This document shows, piece after piece, positions 6,660 to 17,157 of a stretch of 64,000 nt of DNA. The translations under genes were made by a program, and so were the position numbers. Location: positions 62,001 to 126,000 of the forward strand of contig JAFEBS010000006.1 of the NCBI GenBank assembly GCA_018242525.1, written 5' to 3'. The notes under the pieces are model-generated. The model did no database searches and had not been told where the DNA came from. It worked only from the letters and a program-made list of their open reading frames with translations. Numbering within the stretch: position 1 is the first letter of the stretch; the number at the start of each line of letters is the position of its first letter. Origin of the DNA: Planctomycetota bacterium (GTDB lineage: Bacteria; Planctomycetota; Planctomycetia; Planctomycetales; Planctomycetaceae).

Positions 6660-7988
6660 ATGCGACAACTTCCACTTCCATTGATTCTCTTCGTTCTGGC
6701 ATTGCTGGAGTTGAATGTCCGTCACTGTATTGCGGGCGGTGATCAGGATTGGCCGCAGTGGCGAGGACCTCTGGGGACTGGGTTTGCTCCGAATTCAAAT
6801 CCACCGGTGCAATGGAGCGAAACAAAGAATATTCGCTGGAAATCGGCATTACCGGGGAAGGGACATTCGACACCGGTGATCTGGGGTCAGCGCATCTTCC
6901 TGACGACAGCAATCCCCGAAGGCGAACCCCTGCCACCACGAAAGAGCACCGCGCCGGGGACGCATGATGGGGTCCCGGTCACACATCGCCACAGGTTCGT
7001 TGTGCTGGCCGTGGATCGCGGGACTGGCAAGATCCTGTGGCAGAAAACGGTGCATCAGAAACTGCCGCATGAGGGGGGACACTATACCGGCAGCCTGGCC
7101 TCAAATTCCGTGGTCACAGACGGTCAGCATGTCTATGCCTTCTTCGGCTCACATGGATTGTATTGCCTGGACATGAACGGCGATGTGAAGTGGCAGCGGC
7201 AACTGGGGGAAATGCTGACCAAGCACGGACACGGCGAAAGTGCCTCACCGGTCTTGAATGGTGACAACGTCTTTATCAATTGGGACCACGACGGACCCTG
7301 TTTCGTCGCTGCTTTCAACAAGCATACGGGAACGCCCGCCTGGAAGGTGAATCGAGACGAAGAGACATCCTGGTCATCGCCGATTCTGGTGGAGCACGAA
7401 GGACAGGCTCTGTTGATTGTGGCGGGGACAAACCGCATTCGAGCCTACCAGCCGACGACGGGCAAAGTGATCTGGGAGTGTGGCGGCCTGTCGTCGAACA
7501 TCGTCGCCACTCCAGTGTCGGCCGACGGTATGTTGTATGCCGGCAGCAGCTATGAGAAACGGGCGTTCCTGGCGATCCGACTGGATGGAGCACGCGGAGA
7601 CATCACGAATTCGCGTCACGTCGCCTGGACTCGCAGCCGCGGGACGCCCTATGTTCCTTCGCCATTGTTGTACGGCGAGGCCCTTTATTTTCTCACACAC
7701 TACCAGGCAGTCCTGACACGGGTGGACGCCCTGACCGGCGAAGACCGACCCGGTCCAATCCGGCTGGGTGGTCTCGGCAATATCTATGCGTCGCCCGTGG
7801 CTGGTGGAGGCCGCGTTTATGTCACCGATCTGGATGGCAACACGGCCGTCGTCAGCCATGATGACGCCCCCAGGATCCTGGCGGTGAATCATCTGGACGA
7901 AATCTTTTCGGCCTCGGCAGCCATCGTCGGACGGGAATTGTTTCTACGCGGCAACAGCCATTTGTATTGCATTGCCGAAGAAAAGTAG
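6660..7988 (+). CDS. Secreted PQQ-like beta-propeller protein
   Basis: 442 residues beginning with a signal peptide ('LPLILFVLALLELNVRHCIAG', cleavage about residue 27). The mature part starts 'DWPQWRGPLGTGFAP', the standard opening of the planctomycete PQQ-propeller family, and contains blades with repeated W-x-x-x-L and G-x-[VI]-x-W strands ('TGKILWQKTV', 'NGDVKWQRQLG', 'TGTPAWKVNRDE', 'TGKVIWECGG'). These proteins are annotated BamB-like, but this is a free-standing exported propeller whose cofactor and partner are unknown. The ATG has a good SD (TGAGGA, 4 nt away). It is divergent from the SGNH hydrolase gene. Confidence 0.85.
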   Translation: MRQLPLPLILFVLALLELNVRHCIAGGDQDWPQWRGPLGTGFAPNSNPPVQWSETKNIRWKSALPGKGHSTPVIWGQRIFLTTAIPEGEPLPPRKSTAPGTHDGVPVTHRHRFVVLAVDRGTGKILWQKTVHQKLPHEGGHYTGSLASNSVVTDGQHVYAFFGSHGLYCLDMNGDVKWQRQLGEMLTKHGHGESASPVLNGDNVFINWDHDGPCFVAAFNKHTGTPAWKVNRDEETSWSSPILVEHEGQALLIVAGTNRIRAYQPTTGKVIWECGGLSSNIVATPVSADGMLYAGSSYEKRAFLAIRLDGARGDITNSRHVAWTRSRGTPYVPSPLLYGEALYFLTHYQAVLTRVDALTGEDRPGPIRLGGLGNIYASPVAGGGRVYVTDLDGNTAVVSHDDAPRILAVNHLDEIFSASAAIVGRELFLRGNSHLYCIAEEK

Positions 7989-8072
7989 GGGCGGCCCGCC
8001 AACGCATTCAGCGAATGGAAATCCGACTTCGGAACCAGACGCTGGCCTTAAGGTCGTGGCCATCGCCAGCCG

Positions 8073-8096
8073 ATAGTTGTTTAAACGACAATTGTC
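8073..8096. promoter_or_regulatory. Candidate MarR operator (two abutting palindromes)
   Basis: ATAGTTGTTTAAACGACAAT (8073-8092) is an imperfect palindrome centred on GTTTAAAC, with 8 of 10 base pairs symmetric; it overlaps a second, perfect palindrome GACAATTGTC (8087-8096). The pair sits directly before the -35 hexamer of the candidate marR promoter. MarR repressors normally bind 16-20 bp palindromes of this kind next to their own promoter, so autoregulation is inferred. Confidence 0.5.
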
Positions 8097-8125
8097 TTGA
8101 CGTCCTGTTCCGGCAACGATATTGT
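8097..8125 (+). promoter_or_regulatory. Candidate sigma-70-type promoter of marR
   Basis: TTGACG (8097-8102), a 17-nt spacer and TATTGT (8120-8125). Transcription would start near 8132, almost on the ATG at 8134, so the mRNA would be leaderless or nearly so. This also argues against the in-frame TTG at 8122 as start codon. Confidence 0.5.
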
Positions 8126-8133
8126 TGAGCCTC

Positions 8134-8637
8134 ATGACGACTTCCCAACCACGTGATGTTCGTGCTCCGCGATTTGATTCGCTGTTTCAAGAGGCCTATC
8201 TGAATCTGTGGAGAACGTATGACCGGCTGAAGGCGATTGAAGATGAGCTGTTTTCGCAGTTCGACCTGTCGGCTCAGCAGTACAACGCATTGCGCCTGCT
8301 GGAAGCCTCGCATCCGGCCACGGTCCCGACGCTGACCTTGGGAACTCGCCTGATCTCCCGGGCTCCGGACATGACGCGGATGCTGGACCGTCTGGAAGAG
8401 CGAAGTCTTGTTCACCGCGAGCGTCGGCCCGAGAACCGACGCGTCGTCGAAGTCGGGATCACGCCTGCCGGGTTGAAGCTGCTGGACAAACTGGCAGACG
8501 CTGTCCAGGACTGCCATAAGCGGCAGTTGGGGCACCTGTCCAGCAGGGACCTGAAACAACTGGTGGAGCTGCTGCAAACGGTCCGGCAGCCTCACGAAGA
8601 GCCGCAGAGCCTGTGGCGCAAACCGTCCTCGGATTGA
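8134..8637 (+). CDS. MarR-family transcriptional regulator
   Basis: 167 residues with the MarR winged-helix layout: helix 'LNLWRTYDRLKAIEDELFSQFDLSAQQYNALRLL' region, recognition part 'LGTRLISRAPDMTRMLDRLEERSLVHRE' and wing 'RRPENRRVVEVGITPAGLKLL' (the D/N-R-R-x-V signature). Acts as a dimeric DNA-binding repressor or activator, usually released by small phenolic ligands or oxidants. It is followed 81 bp downstream by a halogenase-like flavoenzyme on the same strand, the likely target. Palindromes and a promoter lie just upstream. Confidence 0.9.
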   Translation: MTTSQPRDVRAPRFDSLFQEAYLNLWRTYDRLKAIEDELFSQFDLSAQQYNALRLLEASHPATVPTLTLGTRLISRAPDMTRMLDRLEERSLVHRERRPENRRVVEVGITPAGLKLLDKLADAVQDCHKRQLGHLSSRDLKQLVELLQTVRQPHEEPQSLWRKPSSD

Positions 8638-8718
8638 TCATTCAAAATCGGGGATTTCCACCCCGCCGGAACTGAACAGCAACCAGAACCATTCATGACA
8701 GGACCAGGAGACAGCCCC

Positions 8719-9969
8719 ATGATCGAATCCACCCCACCCAACGTCATCGTCATCGGTGGCGGTCCCGCGGGAACAACCACGGCAACGCTGATCGCCCAGA
8801 AGGGCTATCGAGTCCGATTGTTCGAGCGTGAAAAGTTCCCCCGGTTCCATATTGGCGAATCGTTGATTCCGCAGACGTACTGGGTCCTGCAGCGACTGAA
8901 CATGCTGCCGAAGATGAAGTCCAGCCACTACATCAAGAAGTACAGTGTGCAGTTTGTCGGCTCCAGCGGCCGGTTGTCGGAGCCATTCTACTTTCTCGAT
9001 CACAAACCTCACGAATCGTCCCAGACGTGGCAGGTCCGCCGCAGCGAGTTCGACCAGATGATGTTGGAAAACGCCGCCGAGCATGGCGTGGACGTGCAGA
9101 CCGGCGTGCGTGTCATTGAAGTCCTGTTTGAAGGAGAGCGGGCTGTCGGAGTCCGGGTTCAGGACGACGACGGACGCAACGAACGAATTGAGCGCGCCGA
9201 TGTGATTGTGGACGCCAGCGGTCAAAGCACGATGATCATGGGGAAGCTGGGTTTGCGTGAATGGGATCCGTTGTTGAAGAAAGCCGCCTGCTGGACTTAC
9301 TGGGAGGGAGCTCATCGCGACATCGGCCAGGACGAAGGAGCCACTGTCGTCCTGTCCGTCCAGGGGAAGGCGGGCTGGTTCTGGTACATCCCGCTCCACG
9401 ACAACATTGTCAGCGTGGGGATCGTGGCATCGCACGAATACCTGTTCAAAAACCGCGACACCAGGGACTTCGAAAAGATTTATCACGAGGAAGTTGAAAA
9501 GTGTCCGGCGGTGAAACAGCGGATCAGTTCGGCCAAACGGGCCGATATCTATCGCGCGGCCAAGGAATACTCGTACCGCTCTCAACAAGTCGCCGGTGAC
9601 GGTTGGGTCCTGGTCGGCGATGCACTCGGGTTCCTGGACCCCCTCTATTCGTCGGGTGTTCTGCTGGCCTTGAAGTCGGGGGAACTGGCGGCCGATGCCA
9701 TCTGCGCAGGGCTGGCCAGGGGAGATACCTCGCGCTCGCAGCTTGCGACCTGGGAAGCGGACTATTTCCGCGGCATGGAACGCATGCGACAACTGGTTCT
9801 GGCGTACTACTCGGGCCTTAGCTTTGGCCGGTTCGTTTCGCAGCATCCACACCGCAAGGGGGATATCACGGACCTGCTGATCGGCGACCTGTTTCGTCCG
9901 GAACTGGATGAAACACTGGGTTTGATTCAGGAGGCCGTTAAGGCTCATACGGCGACGGAAGCGATGTGA
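8719..9969 (+). CDS. Flavin-dependent halogenase-like FAD oxidoreductase
   Basis: 416 residues. N-terminal FAD-binding 'VIVIGGGPAGTTTA' (GxGxxG, residues 9-22), then 'FPRFHIGESLIP', a 'YIKKYSVQF' segment whose Lys (73/74) aligns with the catalytic Lys of flavin halogenases, and 'WFWYIP' (220-225), the W-x-W-x-I-P signature that separates halogenases from related monooxygenases. The second FAD motif is 'GWVLVGDALGFLDPLYSSGV'. Substrate cannot be told; many planctomycete homologues are simply called NAD(P)/FAD-dependent oxidoreductase or tryptophan halogenase, and geranylgeranyl-reductase-like activity is the main alternative. ATG 8719 is chosen over 8695 because AGGAG sits 8 nt before it. No flavin reductase gene is adjacent. 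Confidence 0.75.
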   Translation: MIESTPPNVIVIGGGPAGTTTATLIAQKGYRVRLFEREKFPRFHIGESLIPQTYWVLQRLNMLPKMKSSHYIKKYSVQFVGSSGRLSEPFYFLDHKPHESSQTWQVRRSEFDQMMLENAAEHGVDVQTGVRVIEVLFEGERAVGVRVQDDDGRNERIERADVIVDASGQSTMIMGKLGLREWDPLLKKAACWTYWEGAHRDIGQDEGATVVLSVQGKAGWFWYIPLHDNIVSVGIVASHEYLFKNRDTRDFEKIYHEEVEKCPAVKQRISSAKRADIYRAAKEYSYRSQQVAGDGWVLVGDALGFLDPLYSSGVLLALKSGELAADAICAGLARGDTSRSQLATWEADYFRGMERMRQLVLAYYSGLSFGRFVSQHPHRKGDITDLLIGDLFRPELDETLGLIQEAVKAHTATEAM

Positions 9970-9997
9970 CTCGAATCGACGAGGTCTCACGAACTTT

Positions 9998-11278
9998 CTA
10001 CGCGACAGCAGACGCTTTCTCAGCGAAGCGTTCGATGGCATGTTCGCGTTCTGCGCGTGACTGCGCGTGAACCTTGCGCAGCAGTGTTTCCTGAGCCGTG
10101 GTCAGGGTTTGATTGCGGCGTTCCATCGCTGCGCGGGCGGTGGCCAGTCCCTTTTCCAGCGGTAATCCATCGATCAAGTCACCGTGCCAGATGCGCGAGA
10201 ACGAGGGGATATGCTTGGGGAGAAGTTCTCCATCGGGCAGGATCAGGCACATCACTCCCACCGACGAACCGGTGTTGAACAAGCTACCGATCGCCGTCTT
10301 GGTGTGGTCGCCAATGAAGCATCCGACCTTGATCGACTCCGAATCGATGCCATGACCGGCGAGCGGGACGCGGACGGTTGAGTAATCATTCTTTAGGTCA
10401 CTGTTGGTCGACATGGCCCCCAGGTTGACCCACGGGCAGACATAGCTGTGCCCCAGGAAGCCGTCGTGATACTTGTTGACATAGCCGTGCAGGATGGCAC
10501 CTTCGATTTCGCCACCCACCCGGCAGACGGGACCGATGGTGGTTCCTTCGCGGACGTTGGCCCGAAACAACTGGGACTTCGCCCCCACGTGGCACGGGCC
10601 TTCCAGCCGCGTGAAGGCCTGGATGACGGCCCCCGCATCAATCGAGACGGGGCCCTTGCGGGCGTCGATCACCACGAACGGGTCCAGGCTGGCAGTCGGA
10701 TCAATGAAGACGTTGTGAGCCGGCCCCAGGATGGCAACGTGCGGTCCCTGTTCGTCGGCCTGTGACAGCCCGAATTCGCGGGCGGCAAAGTCCAGTTGCA
10801 ATTGATCCGCATTCTGATGGACGAGATCCCACGGATAGCGGGCCAGCACACCTGGGGCCACAACTCGTCGGCGATTGCGTGCGATCTCGGGCAGGACATC
10901 ATCCCAGTTTTCACCCGTCAGCAGAGGGACTTCGAGCGGGTCCAGCGTCAAATAAACGACCGTCCCATCCACGACTCCGACGGCATCGGATTCGATTTGT
11001 TCGAGTGATTTGGGATCGGCCAGCCAGCGTCCGTTCAACAGCAACGTCGCATCGGCACGCAGCCAGTCGACATCGTTGACAACGCGACCGGGATGTTCTT
11101 CACGATAGACGTCGGCCAATTCCGGGCGTACAAACGCAGTCCAATCGTGGACGGGAAGGAATTCCTGGGCGCGCTCGCGAGCCCCGAACTGGCCGCAGAG
11201 CAATTCAAAGACAGGGCGGAGCAGGGCGATCGGCGCAAAATCTTTAGCCGCCAAATCTTCAAACATGGCAATTCGCAT
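9998..11278 (-). CDS. GlmU-like sugar nucleotidyltransferase/acyltransferase
   Basis: 426 residues. The N-terminal half resembles a degenerate nucleotidyltransferase ('MRIAMFEDLAAKDFAPIALL', 'DATLLLNGRW') and the C-terminal half is a left-handed beta-helix with hexapeptide turns ('VVIDARKGPVSIDAGAVI', 'GTTIGPVCRVGGEIEGAILHGY', 'GCFIGDHTKTAIGSLFNTGSSVG'). This matches the alternative GlmU family of Bacteroidetes and Planctomycetes, proposed to act in UDP-GlcNAc synthesis. Start ATG 11278 is favoured over a longer frame because GGGAGG lies 9 nt upstream and the conserved N-terminus begins there. The classical pyrophosphorylase loop (GxGTRM) is absent. Confidence 0.8.
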   Translation of the reverse strand: MRIAMFEDLAAKDFAPIALLRPVFELLCGQFGARERAQEFLPVHDWTAFVRPELADVYREEHPGRVVNDVDWLRADATLLLNGRWLADPKSLEQIESDAVGVVDGTVVYLTLDPLEVPLLTGENWDDVLPEIARNRRRVVAPGVLARYPWDLVHQNADQLQLDFAAREFGLSQADEQGPHVAILGPAHNVFIDPTASLDPFVVIDARKGPVSIDAGAVIQAFTRLEGPCHVGAKSQLFRANVREGTTIGPVCRVGGEIEGAILHGYVNKYHDGFLGHSYVCPWVNLGAMSTNSDLKNDYSTVRVPLAGHGIDSESIKVGCFIGDHTKTAIGSLFNTGSSVGVMCLILPDGELLPKHIPSFSRIWHGDLIDGLPLEKGLATARAAMERRNQTLTTAQETLLRKVHAQSRAEREHAIERFAEKASAVA

Positions 11279-11426
11279 CGCGGGGTCCCTCCCGAGCACA
11301 GCTTCCGGCATCCTCACGAGCGGAATTTATCCCGCTCCATCAATTCGGTGAAGACCAAACCGCAGGACCCGGCGGCCGAAGCGTTTCGTTGAATTCGAAC
11401 GAAGTCTTTGTGTTGCAATGCGATTC

Positions 11427-12374
11427 TCAGCCGGCTTCGTCAAACAGTGCATCCACGAAGCTATCCGGGTTGAACAGTTCCAGATCGTCGACCTGTTCTC
11501 CCACGCCGACATACTTGACGGGAATTCCCATGCGTTGACGAATGGCGACCGTAACCCCGCCCTTGGCGGTTCCGTCCAGTTTGGCCAGGACGATCCCGGT
11601 GCAATGGGCCGCTTTGGAGAAATGCTCGGCTTGATTGAGGCCGTTCTGGCCGGTCGTGGCATCGATGACGAGCAGACATTCGTGGGGAGCACCGGGGATC
11701 TTCTTGTCGATCACACGGCGGATCTTTTCCAGTTCTTTCATCAGGTTCGCCTGATTATGAAGGCGGCCGGCGGTATCGATCACCAGGACATCGACCCCCG
11801 CCTTCAGCGCCTCTTCGCAACCGGCAAACGCGACGCTGGCAGGATCCGTGCCGCTGGGCCGTGTTACGATCGGACAGCCCAATCGCTGACTCCACATTGT
11901 CAGTTGTTCCACGGCGGCGGCTCGGAAGGTGTCACCGGCAGCGAGCATGACGGACAGTCCCTGCGACCGCAACAACTTGGTGATTTTGGCAATCGAAGTG
12001 GTCTTTCCGGTTCCGTTCACGCCCGTCACCAGGATCACCGTCGGTTTGGTTTCGGCGAATCTCAATGGGGACAGCGGCTTTTCCGAATCCCAGGTCGTAC
12101 CGTCGGTGCCGCGCAGGATATTTCGCAGCGTGTCTTTGATCGTGGCCCAGATTTCATGGAGCACGACGGTCCGGCCAAAGTGCTTCGACCGCAATTCGCC
12201 AATGATCGCCTCGGCGGCGGCAACGCCGATATCGGTCCGGATCAAGCGGGCTTCAAACTGTTCCAGCTTGTTGTCGTCAAGTATGTCACCTGACTTAAAC
12301 AAGTCACGGATATCGGTTTGCAGCAACTGCTTGGTTCGCTGCAGTCCCAGCTTCAGCTTGTCGAAGAATCCCAT
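11427..12374 (-). CDS. ftsY: Signal recognition particle receptor FtsY
   Basis: SRP-type GTPase that docks ribosome-nascent-chain complexes at the membrane. 315 residues: helical N domain (1-90, '[16 protein letters not shown]'), then the G domain with P-loop '[14 protein letters not shown]', insertion-box motif '[12 protein letters not shown]', '[13 protein letters not shown]' and '[10 protein letters not shown]'-type G4 written here as '[12 protein letters not shown]'. The acidic A domain of E. coli FtsY is missing, as in many bacteria. Start ATG 12374 gives the conserved 'GFF' N-terminus; the upstream extension to 12476 is unlike the family. Confidence 0.95.
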
Positions 12375-12483
12375 GATCGGTCGTTTCGCCTGTATTTCAC
12401 GGTGTCGGTGCCATTTGTTGCAGATCATAGAAGTCGCCGCAGCCAGGAGCAATTCCCGCCTATGCCAATCCCGCAATCCCGGC

Positions 12484-12537: not shown

Positions 12538-12873
12538 ATGACCAACGCGATGGAACGCGGGTGGCTGGTACTGATCTTGGTTGCGGCGGCGAGTAGTTCG
12601 GGTTGCCAGGAAGCCCGCTCTTTCTCATGTCGTCCCCGGGATCCGCGCGTTGAGGCAGAGATCTATGACAAGGTACACGATCCGTTCCCGGACGAATCTC
12701 TGGGACCTGATACTCACAGCCGCCCAGGCTCGTTCCAGTTGCCTCGGACCCAGGATTACAAGACGTTCGAATACAAGAATCTGCGTTCTTCCGGGATTGT
12801 CCGTCCGGGGATGGCTGCTCAACCTGGACTGCTGGACGATACTTCGCGCCGGTACAACGTGGTTCCGTACTGA
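12538..12873 (+). CDS. Small exported lipoprotein, function unknown
   Basis: 111 residues with a lipoprotein signal peptide: charged start, hydrophobic core 'WLVLILVAAASSSGC' and lipobox S-S-G-C with the lipidated Cys at about residue 23. The mature part is short, polar and Pro/Arg rich, without a recognisable domain. CAGGAG lies 8 nt before the ATG. It precedes a squalene-cyclase-like repeat protein by 28 bp on the same strand; the frame of the latter is open through this gene by chance, which hides this gene in simple ORF calls. Confidence 0.65.
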   Translation: MTNAMERGWLVLILVAAASSSGCQEARSFSCRPRDPRVEAEIYDKVHDPFPDESLGPDTHSRPGSFQLPRTQDYKTFEYKNLRSSGIVRPGMAAQPGLLDDTSRRYNVVPY

Positions 12874-12901
12874 AGCGAATTGCCTGGTCACAACCTGCCT
12901 G

Positions 12902-13924
12902 ATGACCGTGTTGTGTCTGGTGTCACAGACCGCGATCGCCCAGCCCGCCCAGCCGCGGAATGCAGAGTCGACCGCGGCGAACATGATTTCGGCCGAGCAC
13001 CAAAAGAACATCGATCGGGGATTGGCCTATCTGGCCCTGCGACAGGGGGCCGACGGGTCGTTCGGATCGGGCACCGCATACCGGCGAAATGTGGCAGTGA
13101 CCTCGCTGGCCGCGATGGCGTTTCTGTCCGCCGGCAGTACTCCTGGACGCGGCGTCTACGGTGAGAAGGTCGACAAGTCGATCGACTTCGTCCTGTCCTG
13201 TGCCAAGCCCTCCGGATACATCATTCGCGAAGACAGCGCCGGGCATGGTCCGATGTACGGGCATGGATTCGCGACACTCTTTCTGGCAGAAGTGTATGGG
13301 ATGAGTCCCCGCAAGGATGTTCGCGAAACCTTGAAGGGGGCCGTTCAACTGATTGTCAATTCGCAAAATCGCGAAGGAGGCTGGCGCTATGATCCAGACG
13401 GAAAGGATGCCGATGTGTCTGTCACCGTCTGCCAGATGATGGCGTTGCGCGCCGCCCGCAACTGCGGGATTGCCGTCCCGAAAACCACGGTCGATCAGTG
13501 TGTCGAATATGTCAAGAAGTGCCAGAACGTGGACGGTGGATTTCGGTACCAACTGATGATCCGTCCTCAAAGTGACTTTCCCCGTTCGGCGGCTGGTGTT
13601 GTGACCTTGTATTCCGCCGGAATGACGGAAGGCTCCGAGATTGAACGTGGCCTGTCCTACCTGCAGCGGTTCCCTCCCCGTGGTGACCGACTTCACTACG
13701 ACGCTCATTATTTTTACGGTCACTACTATGCCGTTCAGGCAATGTGGCACGCAGGAGACGATCGATGGCAAAAGTGGTTTCCCGCGATTCGAGATGAATT
13801 GCTGGCCCGTCAGCATTTCGATGGTAGCTGGTCTGACAACCAGATTAACAACGAATACGCCTCCGCCATGGCCTGCCTGATCCTGCAAATGCCCAACAAT
13901 TACCTGCCGATCTTTCAGCGGTGA
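12902..13924 (+). CDS. Exported prenyltransferase/squalene-cyclase-repeat protein
   Basis: 340 residues with a short hydrophobic N-terminus ending 'TAIAQPAQ' (signal peptide) and an alpha/alpha-barrel of terpenoid-cyclase type. QW-like repeats are visible: 'GLAYLALRQGADGSFGSG', 'AVQLIVNSQNREGGWRYDP', 'CVEYVKKCQNVDGGFRYQ' and 'DELLARQHFDGSWSDN'. The catalytic D-x-D-D-T-A motif of squalene-hopene cyclase is not present, so it is unlikely to cyclise terpenes; such proteins are common and uncharacterised in planctomycetes. Start ATG 12902 is the first plausible one after the lipoprotein stop; upstream in-frame codons lie within that gene. No SD is visible. Confidence 0.75.
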   Translation: MTVLCLVSQTAIAQPAQPRNAESTAANMISAEHQKNIDRGLAYLALRQGADGSFGSGTAYRRNVAVTSLAAMAFLSAGSTPGRGVYGEKVDKSIDFVLSCAKPSGYIIREDSAGHGPMYGHGFATLFLAEVYGMSPRKDVRETLKGAVQLIVNSQNREGGWRYDPDGKDADVSVTVCQMMALRAARNCGIAVPKTTVDQCVEYVKKCQNVDGGFRYQLMIRPQSDFPRSAAGVVTLYSAGMTEGSEIERGLSYLQRFPPRGDRLHYDAHYFYGHYYAVQAMWHAGDDRWQKWFPAIRDELLARQHFDGSWSDNQINNEYASAMACLILQMPNNYLPIFQR

Positions 13925-13959
13925 ATCGAGTATTCATTGGCCATCAGAGGGTGACGGAC

Positions 13960-15168
13960 GTGCGGATCTCGATCGGACGGATGTTGTGCTGGTTTGGCTG
14001 CCTGTCATCCGCCTGCGCGTTCGCCGCAGACGTCGTGACCGTGGTCGATGTGACTGGCCGTACGACGACAGATGCGATCCTGCGTGAGTGGTCTGCCGAC
14101 CAGGTCATTGTCCAGGGTGAATCTGTCGTCAGAACGCCCGTGGAGGACCTTCTAAGCGTATCGTTCGGTCACCGGCCAGTCCCCATGGTTGGTGGCGACC
14201 CGCTGGTGATCCTGGCCAACGGAGATCGCCTGGTACTACGTTCGGTGAGCATTCTGGATGATGTTTTGACCGCGATCTGGCACAAGATCCCCTCGCGTCC
14301 GGCTCTGAAGCTTCCCCTGGAAACTGTGGCCGCCATCGTGTTCGATCTTCCCGCCATCGGCGATGATCGGCAACGTCTGTATGCCGAGTTGCAGAACCTT
14401 CCCGCCGGTGAAGACATGGTTCTACTGGCGAACGGCGACCGGGTGCAGGGGGAATTTGAGCGGTTGGATGGAGCTTTCGTACAAATCAAGACCGCGGCGG
14501 GTCCGTTGAAGCTCGATCGATCCCGTGTCCGCGCGATCCGCATGAACCCCGAGTTGACATCGCCACCGAAAGTCCCCGGTCGGCGACTGACACTTTCGTT
14601 GCGTGACGGATCGCGGGTGACGTTGCGCAGTATCGAATTGAGCGACCATGAATTGAAATGCCAGACGCTTGCGAAGCTGATCTTCCAGATTCCCACCGAC
14701 GAGTGCCTGGCCTGCAGGGTCTATGGGAGTCATGTGATTCCACTGGCTGATCGAGAACCGGCCCAGGTGACGTTTGTGCCCTACTTGTCACACCAGTGGC
14801 CGCTGGTCAGGAATGCCAATGTCCTTGGCGGCCCCCTGTCCATCCGCGGGACGGAATACAGCACGGGTCTGGGCGTTCATAGTCGTTCCGTGGTGACATA
14901 TGATCTGCAACCGACAGATCGTGAATTCCGTGTGACCGTGGGAATTGATGACGCGGCTGGTGGAGCGGGCAGCGTCCGGTTCGGAATTGAACTGGACGGC
15001 CAGCGAAAGTGGGAAAGCCTGGAATTGAACGGACGTTCTCCTCCTGTTGAAGTCCCCCCCATCAAGCTGCAAGGAGCCGCGAAGTTGATGCTGATTGTCG
15101 ATTATGGTGCTGGTGCGGACATCGCAGATTATGCGAACTGGTGCGATGCCGTGATTGTTCGCGAATGA
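13960..15168 (+). CDS. Exported NPCBM/NEW2-like domain protein
   Basis: About 402 residues. Signal peptide 'MRISIGRMLCWFGCLSSACAFA'. The middle has two or three small beta modules with repeated 'LANGDR' and 'LRDGSRVTL' turns (about residues 60-75, 135-150, 205-215). The C-terminal ~150 residues form an NPCBM-type carbohydrate-binding jelly-roll: 'IRGTEYSTGLGVHSRSVVTYDL', 'FRVTVGIDDAAGGAGSVRFGIELDG', 'LMLIVDYGAGADIADYANWCDAVIV'. GTG 13960 has GAGGG upstream and gives a normal signal peptide; a GTG at 13921 overlapping the preceding stop as GTGA is the alternative. Probably co-expressed with the squalene-cyclase-like gene. Confidence 0.78.
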   Translation: MRISIGRMLCWFGCLSSACAFAADVVTVVDVTGRTTTDAILREWSADQVIVQGESVVRTPVEDLLSVSFGHRPVPMVGGDPLVILANGDRLVLRSVSILDDVLTAIWHKIPSRPALKLPLETVAAIVFDLPAIGDDRQRLYAELQNLPAGEDMVLLANGDRVQGEFERLDGAFVQIKTAAGPLKLDRSRVRAIRMNPELTSPPKVPGRRLTLSLRDGSRVTLRSIELSDHELKCQTLAKLIFQIPTDECLACRVYGSHVIPLADREPAQVTFVPYLSHQWPLVRNANVLGGPLSIRGTEYSTGLGVHSRSVVTYDLQPTDREFRVTVGIDDAAGGAGSVRFGIELDGQRKWESLELNGRSPPVEVPPIKLQGAAKLMLIVDYGAGADIADYANWCDAVIVRE

Positions 15169-15196
15169 TTGGTGATACCTGTCGAAGGAATTCGAC

Positions 15197-16213
15197 GTGT
15201 GCGACGTCCTCGAATTGAAAATGATTATGAAACCTATGATCACGCCGATCGCCGTCGTTTTAACGGTGATCGTGCTCACGTGTGGTGGCAGCCGCGCTGA
15301 CGAACCGTTGACGTCGACCACAAACCTGCACCTGGCCGAGGTGGAAACCGGTCAGGCGCTGGCGGCGGCGAGCGACACCTTCCTCAAGTCGCTCAGCCGG
15401 TTTGATCGCCAGGTTCGGTTGCAGACCGATGGTGAGGCTACCGAACAGGCGCTGATCGAATTCATCCAGGGGGAAGTCCTTGCCTGGGACGATGGCGAGC
15501 GGCAAAGTCTGGTGGATTCGATCCAACGGTTACGACCAAAGCTGGTGCCGTTTCGATTGCCACTTCCAGAAACGGTCGTGCTGGTTTTGATGTCTGGAAA
15601 GGAAGAGGCAAACGCCGCTTATACCCGGGGAATGGCCATCTTTCTGCCCAGGGACCGGGTTCAGAAACTGAAGGCCGATGCCCTGGATCGGCTGGTGCTC
15701 CACGAATTGTTTCACGTTCTCTCCCGCAACGCGCCGGAACTGCGTCGGGACCTGTACCGGATCGTCGGATTTGAACTGTGCGAGCCGATTTCACTGCCGC
15801 CCGCTCTGGCCGATCTCAAGCTGACCAACCCGGACGCGCCGCTCATTGATTGTCGGATCAAGGTGACGGACGACAACACCGAATTCCACGCCGCTCCGAT
15901 CTTGTACTCCTCGTCGGCGACCTATGACGTTGGCAAGAAGCCTCCGCTGTTCAAATACCTCACGTTCCGGCTGATGAAGATCGAGGAATCCGAGGGGCGC
16001 TGGAGACCTCTGTTGGACAAGTGCGAACCGATTCTGATTGACCCTGCGAAGTGCGATTCGTATGCCGCGCAAATTGGCAAGAACACGAAATACATCATCC
16101 ATCCCGATGAGATCCTGGCAGACAATTTCGTTCATCTGATCATGCAGACCGAAAAGTTGCCGTCGCCTCAGATCGTCGATCAGATGGGTGAACGGTTGCG
16201 CGCCGTACAGTGA
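15197..16213 (+). CDS. Exported putative zinc metallopeptidase (HELFH)
   Basis: 338 residues; signal peptide around residues 12-34 ('MITPIAVVLTVIVLTCGGSRA'). A zinc-peptidase motif H-E-L-F-H (169-173) sits in a predicted helix 'ALDRLVLHELFHVLSRNAPELR', and 'HPDEILADNFVHLI' (302-315) contains a Glu that could be the third zinc ligand, as in gluzincins. I do not recognise a named family. GTG 15197 is used because AAGGA lies 8 nt upstream; ATGs at 15221, 15227 and 15236 would give shorter signal peptides. It trails the NPCBM-like gene by 28 bp on the same strand. Confidence 0.7.
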   Translation: MCDVLELKMIMKPMITPIAVVLTVIVLTCGGSRADEPLTSTTNLHLAEVETGQALAAASDTFLKSLSRFDRQVRLQTDGEATEQALIEFIQGEVLAWDDGERQSLVDSIQRLRPKLVPFRLPLPETVVLVLMSGKEEANAAYTRGMAIFLPRDRVQKLKADALDRLVLHELFHVLSRNAPELRRDLYRIVGFELCEPISLPPALADLKLTNPDAPLIDCRIKVTDDNTEFHAAPILYSSSATYDVGKKPPLFKYLTFRLMKIEESEGRWRPLLDKCEPILIDPAKCDSYAAQIGKNTKYIIHPDEILADNFVHLIMQTEKLPSPQIVDQMGERLRAVQ

Positions 16214-16281
16214 CCACCGGGGACGGCACCCGGCTCACCTGGAACTGTTCTTGGATTTCCGGGGAAGTGGGCAGCGAACGG

Positions 16282-17157
16282 TTATTTGACGCGGCCCTTC
16301 ACGCACCGGAATCCAACCGCATCATCGGCATCGGTATTGGCAATCTTCCGGCGAGCGGTGCTGGTCAGTCTGTCGAACTTGTCCTTCCATGACCCGCTGC
16401 GCAGAACGTGACCGTCGTTTGGTTCGACACTCATTGCCGCGCCGTCTTCCGGAGCATGGTCGTAATCGTCGGACCAGTGATCGGCCGTGAATTCCCACAG
16501 GTAACCGTGCATGTCGTACAGTCCCCAGGGGTTGGGCTTCAGGGCTCCAACCGGTGGGTCGTTACCGGCCGCGTTGCCGGTGTGCCAGCCGTACATGTCA
16601 AGCAGCCTGGCCTTGTTCCCCTGGTCGCCGTCCATCTGTGCGTCATCGCCAAAACTGTAACGGGTTGTCGTACCTGCTCGACAACAGTATTCCCATTCGG
16701 CCTCGGTCGGCAACCGGATTTCTTCATCATCGGCGATCAGCTTTTGTTTCCGCAGAGCGACTGTGACCTTCTGGCAGAATTCGGTTGCGTCCTTCCAGGT
16801 CATCATTTCGACCGAATTTCGGGGACCCTTCCAGCGACTGGGGTTCTTGCCCATCACCGCCTCATACAGATTCTGCGGGACTTCGTACCTGGCGATGGCA
16901 AACTTGTATCCGAACGTCACTTTGTGAACCGGTCGTTCATTGGCCGGCCCGGAGTCCGATCCCATCTGAAACGACTTCGGAAACTTCCCTTCGCCCGGGG
17001 AGATCGCCACAAATTCCTCGGCAAACGTTTTCAACAGCGCAGCCGACTTGGAATCGGGCTCATTGTCGTCTGCAGCCCAGAGTGCTGATTCGCAATTCCC
17101 GATGAGGAGTGTGAGGGTGAACAACAACTGCGGACATCGAGCCAGTCTGCAACACAT
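16282..17157 (-). CDS. Exported SUMF1/FGE-like domain protein without active-site cysteines
   Basis: 291 residues: signal peptide ('LLFTLTLLIGNCESALWAA'), then a formylglycine-generating-enzyme fold: 'FQMGSDSGPANERPVHKVTF', 'YEVPQNLYEAVMGKNPSRWKG', 'RLPTEAEWEYCCRAGTTTRYSFGD', 'NPWGLYDMHGYLWEFTADHW', and C-terminal 'VLRSGSWKDKFDRLTSTARR', 'VGFRCVKG'. In true FGE the stretch after GGSW carries a catalytic Cys pair; here it reads K-D-K-F-D and has none, so sulfatase activation is unlikely and a binding role is inferred. ATG 17157 has CAGGAGA 6 nt upstream. It lies 71 bp behind coaX on the same strand. Confidence 0.82.
   Translation of the reverse strand: MCCRLARCPQLLFTLTLLIGNCESALWAADDNEPDSKSAALLKTFAEEFVAISPGEGKFPKSFQMGSDSGPANERPVHKVTFGYKFAIARYEVPQNLYEAVMGKNPSRWKGPRNSVEMMTWKDATEFCQKVTVALRKQKLIADDEEIRLPTEAEWEYCCRAGTTTRYSFGDDAQMDGDQGNKARLLDMYGWHTGNAAGNDPPVGALKPNPWGLYDMHGYLWEFTADHWSDDYDHAPEDGAAMSVEPNDGHVLRSGSWKDKFDRLTSTARRKIANTDADDAVGFRCVKGRVK

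Follow-up and report, generated by a model that had tools for sequence, protein, structure and literature searches.

The window, a 64,000-nucleotide stretch of planctomycete DNA analysed here as a whole, contains a gene for a MarR-family regulator and, 57 bases downstream on the same strand, a gene for a flavoenzyme (Table 1). The initial annotation had described a MarR gene before the enzyme, a palindromic operator abutting a promoter and no adjacent biosynthetic genes, and all three were recovered. The regulator matches the MarR winged-helix domain profile PF01047 at 43 bits (cut-off 24.6), has 3u2r as its top-scoring solved relative (209 bits) and is encoded by the sole copy in the window's genome (E <= 1e-8). 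Its score against the model of HpaR, an aromatic-responsive MarR protein (TIGR02337), was 50.2 bits, below the cut-off of 121.2. An alternative MarR start is the TTG at 8122. For the enzyme, the likelier start is an in-frame ATG at 8719 with AGGAG ahead of it, which gives 416 aa. The genes flanking the pair look unrelated to it, and the upstream PQQ-propeller gene was ruled out as a conserved partner since it is not syntenic.

Table 1. Features of the regulator-flavoenzyme locus, in window positions.
Feature	Position	Strand	Basis or remark
PQQ-propeller protein gene, upstream of MarR	6660-7988		Looks unrelated
Predicted MarR operator AACGACAATTGTCTTGACG (19-mer)	8084-8102		Sequence and conservation upstream of orthologues
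Promoter-like site TTGACG-17-TATTGT	8097-8125	+	9/12 consensus matches
MarR-family repressor, 167 aa	8134-8637	+	PF01047 match
Variant-B flavin-dependent halogenase-like enzyme, 424 aa	8695-9969	+	Profile, fold, motifs
Glu55 codon, GES motif	8857-8859	+	Reading frame; invariant in 121/121 rows
Lys82 codon, presumed catalytic lysine	8938-8940	+	Reading frame; aligns with Lys of six halogenases
WFWYIP (W228-P233), WxWxIP motif	9376-9393	+	Reading frame and alignment
FLDPLYSSG (F313-G321), FxxPxxSxG motif	9631-9657	+	Reading frame and alignment
Sugar-nucleotidyl-transferase-like gene	9998-11317	-	Looks unrelated
SRP54-type GTPase gene, probably ftsY	11427-12476	-	Looks unrelated

A perfect 10-base palindrome, GACAATTGTC (8087-8096), lies inside the predicted operator and abuts the -35 box TTGACG (8097-8102), into which the overlapping half-sites of the operator extend. 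The -10 box TATTGT (8120-8125) follows after a spacer of 17 nt and the start codon lies 9 bases past it, so the MarR transcript is likely leaderless or nearly so. By itself the promoter is weak evidence, since two such sites were found in 7980-10050 compared to 0.7 in shuffles. Conservation provides stronger support for the operator. Of 41 distinct regions upstream of MarR, 28 contained paired GACAA/TTGTC half-sites (28 of the 39 with real upstream DNA, the other two being L026 and L118), whereas 200 shuffles averaged 0.44 and never exceeded 3. The search expression was composed after the sequences had been inspected. Operator variants upstream of MarR orthologues were TTGTCTGGAC and TTGTCTTGAC. 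The 8.45 Mb genome has a single copy of the 19-mer, which is unique at up to 2 mismatches; five other places match it at 3 mismatches, where the reversed control gave three. A regulon with this operator elsewhere in the genome was therefore rejected (six places in all against three), leaving MarR's own site. Together, these results suggest that the MarR-enzyme pair and its predicted autoregulation look real.

Classification of the flavoenzyme

The enzyme matches the Trp_halogenase family, PF04820, at 119 bits (cut-off 21), and its best NCBIfam model is that of CmlS, at 220 bits and far under the cut-off of 900. A profile of the enzyme family built from 26 sequences (A2) scored variant-B halogenase chains at 195-291 bits, 3nix at 221 bits and the reductase 3oz2 at 68 bits. 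The AlphaFold model of the enzyme (pLDDT 86.5) was compared with solved structures using VIA-align. Nine variant-B-like entries, including FasV, Bmp2, Mpy16, PltA, ChlB4, CndH and RadH, gave Z 43-48 and rmsd 2.2-2.9, and CmlS gave 37.5. Structural modelling had been proposed in the initial annotation as a check, and it placed the variant-B halogenases (Z 37-48) above 3oz2 (about 34).

Homologues were collected from 120 loci, some of them sharing a genome; 80 were found by exact peptide patterns and the other 40 without them. Glu55, Lys82, WxWxIP and F313xxP316xY318S319xG321 did not vary across the 121 homologue rows (116 of them distinct), a conservation that for the 80 pattern-found loci is partly due to selection, since some search patterns overlap the signatures. 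The conserved lysine and W-x-W-x-I-P noted in the initial annotation are thus confirmed as Lys82 and W228-F-W-Y-I-P233. The dinucleotide motif GxGxxG is also present, as G21-G22-G23-P24-A25-G26. The FixC outgroup from E. coli has a lysine in the Lys82 column and lacks both WxWxIP and FxxPxxSxG. As FixC shares this lysine and the uncharacterised 3nix shares the fold, lysine and fold alone are no proof of halogenation.

Trp halogenases (variant A) have a Lys-Glu pair, the distal Glu of which lies in a PLES motif. This Glu is absent from the enzyme family, all 121 rows of which have Tyr318 at what we take to be the place of the second catalytic residue. Loss of the Lys-Glu pair had been named in the initial annotation as grounds for rejecting a halogenase. 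The Glu of Trp halogenases is indeed replaced, but the argument fails because six variant-B references also lack it and carry Phe or Leu at this place. Glu55 of GES is common to all six.

FasV and CndH are named halogenases with known products, and PltA, Mpy16, Bmp2 and ChlB4 are halogenases of carrier-bound substrates. FasV (PDB 8zop) and CndH (3e1t) resemble the window enzyme in fold (Z 48.3 and 43.3), in the lysine, in both motifs and in lacking the distal Glu. They are 32-36% identical to it over the structural alignment and differ in that the window enzyme is linked to a cluster with radical SAM and ChL, described below. PltA, Mpy16, Bmp2 and ChlB4 are also similar in motifs and fold (Z about 47); beside the enzyme relatives examined, no carrier protein gene was found and CoA-ligase-like genes were present instead. 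With the chloramphenicol halogenase CmlS (3i3l) the Lys segments are near-identical (YVKKPSATF against YIKKYSVQF), and the window enzyme lacks the long C-terminal part of CmlS (424 against ~570 positions). In the tree, the six halogenase references form one group (98) that lies amid divergent cluster-type rows, and the root is unusable because the FixC outgroup branch has ~10 changes per column. Collectively, profile scores, motifs and predicted fold support a variant-B halogenase-like enzyme that groups with FasV, CndH, PltA, CmlS and Bmp2 and not with geranylgeranyl reductases, in line with the halogenase-like reading of the initial annotation.

Genomic settings and a conserved gene cluster

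The closest named relatives are from Schlesneria (88% identity). Enzyme relatives occur in three settings: the MarR pair, a mainly acidobacterial cluster and a longer planctomycete cluster. Close-type (MarR) and cluster-type enzymes are only about 45-52% identical, so their function could differ. In 24 of 74 pattern-found loci with at least 650 upstream bases, and in one of the six with fewer, MarR is the same-strand gene immediately 5' of the enzyme. Among the 40 further loci, it precedes 18 of 25 close-type enzymes and none of the 15 cluster-type ones. The first neighbour tables relied on a crude ORF caller and omit 15 loci at which it failed (13 among the 80 pattern-found); later counts were made by tblastn. 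Bin names such as Kuenenia, Alphaproteobacteria and Acidimicrobiia are possibly binning errors and were not relied on.

Several variations on the pair were observed. In Limnoglobus roseus (L066), MarR is ~1.5 kb from the enzyme in the opposite orientation, and at L076 the match to MarR and that to the enzyme share ~20 bases, which suggests that their translation is coupled. A CPA2 cation/proton antiporter gene, absent from the window, lies 3' of the pair in many planctomycetes (loci including L037, L038, L043, L048, L054, L059, L065, L067, L068 and L070). An aminodeoxychorismate synthase-like gene, pabB, is directly 3' of the enzyme in part of one genus, in seven genomes (L026, L098, L108, L109, L110, L112 and L114), which may be of little meaning.

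In the second setting, found mainly in Acidobacteriota, the enzyme is accompanied by a HemN-like radical SAM protein, a chorismate-lyase-like protein (ChL), a 4HBT thioesterase and a PaaK-like ligase. The planctomycete cluster additionally contains an EhpF-like ligase, an aldehyde dehydrogenase (ALDH), an Fe-alcohol dehydrogenase (FeADH), a PQQ propeller and transporters. It was surveyed in 14 wide stretches (L154-L167), picked because the enzyme adjoins radical SAM there. About 14 genes make up the cluster, with the number of stretches in brackets: DUF3311 (9), SSS (10), EhpF (11), ALDH (12), FeADH (14), PQQ (10), radical SAM (14), ChL (9), enzyme (14), glycosyltransferase (8), thioesterase (10), PaaK (9), ABC ATPase (10) and FtsX (9). 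The names SSS and ABC ATPase were assigned by visual inspection. No description of the cluster was found in the open-licence literature, and the pathway is apparently undescribed.

Across 294 Planctomycetota genomes, the enzyme was detected in 63, radical SAM in 59 and ChL in 43. All 59 radical SAM genomes and all 43 ChL genomes also have the enzyme, and at the thresholds used 4 of the 63 enzyme genomes lack radical SAM and 20 lack ChL. Radical SAM is less than 3 kb from the enzyme in 34 of the 59 genomes. In a narrower set comprising the window's genome and 58 relatives, the enzyme was found in 49, radical SAM in 48 and ChL in 49, and all three genes were absent from eight, seven of which are from one family. 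These thresholds were set by us, and genome relatedness inflates any P value.

The ChL model (pLDDT 92.9) retrieved 2nwi (DUF98, TM 0.66-0.68) and the E. coli chorismate lyase 1g81 (TM 0.58) at Foldseek ranks 1-4, with UTRA regulator domains close behind, and the ChL profile finds 2nwi at E 2.4e-5. A chorismate-lyase role for ChL is plausible, as judged from sequence and model. The ChL homologues L064 and L081 gave no Pfam match, and L064 gave no NCBIfam match; ubiquitin matches of the ChL profile were dismissed as repeat artefacts. EhpF is described in one report (PMC3175449) as being among the enzymes that convert phenazine dicarboxylate to D-alanyl-griseoluteate, the core of which carries a hydroxymethyl group. 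By analogy with this role in the griseoluteate route, the combination of EhpF, ALDH and FeADH suggests that the cluster may reduce an aromatic acid.

The window's genome has one enzyme copy (E <= 1e-40), the MarR-linked one, and none of the partner genes tested lies within the 64 kb window. Contig 23 (12600-16980) carries FeADH and a PQQ propeller followed by adjacent radical SAM and ChL genes, 67% and 65% identical to their counterparts in genome G023; unlike in sister genera, no enzyme gene was found after ChL. On contig 1 (226456-229000), EhpF adjoins ALDH. The parts of the proposed pathway are present but scattered in this genome, and the enzyme is under its own predicted repressor. The earlier suggestion that the substrate comes from elsewhere is thereby given concrete candidates.

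Proposed role of the gene pair

We propose, with a probability of roughly 0.55, that the pair is a self-regulated operon whose enzyme is a probable halogenase of a chorismate-derived phenol, made by a conserved pathway encoded elsewhere in the genome. MarR would occupy the palindrome overlying the -35 box until a small ligand, probably an aromatic one, releases it. The second gene would then supply an FADH2-dependent variant-B halogenase-like enzyme, a class indicated by sequence and predicted fold. Following the family mechanism, FADH2 and O2 would form a flavin hydroperoxide that turns halide into HOX, and Lys82 would pass HOX to the substrate. The likeliest substrate is a phenol derived from chorismate, for example 4-hydroxybenzoate or a thioester thereof. 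It may be supplied by ChL, the HemN-like radical SAM protein, the EhpF-like ligase with ALDH, and FeADH, encoded on contigs 1 and 23. In sister genera and Acidobacteriota the enzyme family is located within the cluster, and in the window's lineage it stands separately under its own predicted switch. Of the tailoring or detoxifying role suggested in the initial annotation, tailoring in an aromatic pathway is likely, but detoxification is disfavoured because the co-occurrence and the gene clusters point to biosynthesis.

The same pathway could instead involve other chemistry, the enzyme hydroxylating or oxidatively decarboxylating an aromatic intermediate with no halogen entering. We consider this unlikely, although several results favour it. 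The spread of the cluster resembles that of core metabolism, which is unusual for a halogenation pathway and counts against one. The QhpG and LodB models also match the enzyme, and its fold neighbours past the halogenases are aromatic hydroxylases including p-hydroxybenzoate hydroxylase (Z about 34). Moreover, 3nix, a Cytophaga hutchinsonii protein of unknown role annotated as a flavoprotein/dehydrogenase, is as close as the halogenases by both profile and fold (Z 46.7, 27% identity). Against this stand the invariant signatures of the family. According to a review (PMC8407142), WxWxIP blocks monooxygenation, FxxPxxSxG is perhaps common to every active halogenase, and the lysine is essential in halogenases.

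Still less probable is that the MarR-linked enzyme serves detoxification or defence as a separate paralogue, co-occurring with the cluster genes through shared ancestry only. MarR control, the CPA2 antiporter that adjoins the enzyme in 15 loci, whether MarR is present or not, and a window without any pathway gene are consistent with such a role. However, no radical SAM genome lacks the enzyme, Acidobacteriota have their close-type enzymes within the cluster, and the cluster block of the window's own genome is without its enzyme. Furthermore, both types occur together in 0 of the 49 relatives with the enzyme at the threshold used; in the wider set, genome G138 has both. A geranylgeranyl-reductase-type enzyme, to which the TIGR02032 score of 139.1 bits would point, is ruled out for practical purposes by that score lying below the cut-off of 158.8, by a fold Z of 34 compared to 43-48 for halogenases, and by the absence of WxWxIP and FxxPxxSxG from the related FixC.

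By itself, the enzyme would be just another halogenase-like gene. Its almost perfect coupling to radical SAM and the wide spread of the cluster, which reaches many planctomycete families as well as Acidobacteriota, point to a retained aromatic metabolite, and the operon offers a handle on it, since the MarR ligand could name the pathway substrate. If the enzyme is a halogenase in this pathway, a fuller scheme may be sketched, which is rather unlikely to hold in all its parts: the ~14 genes, shared by Planctomycetota and Acidobacteriota, would lead from chorismate to a halogenated 4-hydroxybenzoate and on to the aldehyde and alcohol (EhpF/ALDH/FeADH), with radical SAM modification and export, and with the halogenase uncoupled under a MarR sensor in the window's lineage. 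Halogenation would then be a switchable step in this lineage, and planctomycete halogenated phenols without known genes would have a candidate source in the cluster. Fungal chlorinated anisyl metabolites would be a counterpart to the products of this bacterial pathway. As described in a survey (PMC12078418), few planctomycete compounds are known; they include the 4-hydroxybenzoate-type halogenated aromatics 3,5-dibromo-p-anisic acid and alichondrichlorin, and the genes for the latter are unknown. The window's enzyme family and these compounds have the phylum in common, and any link of the cluster to them is hypothetical.

Two further matches were observed outside the main set. The window's genome has a second, weak Trp_halogenase-family match (25.6 bits) at C99:128157-128783, and genome G115 has, at C120:7112-8263, a remote homologue of the enzyme (35%) that contains an internal TAG.
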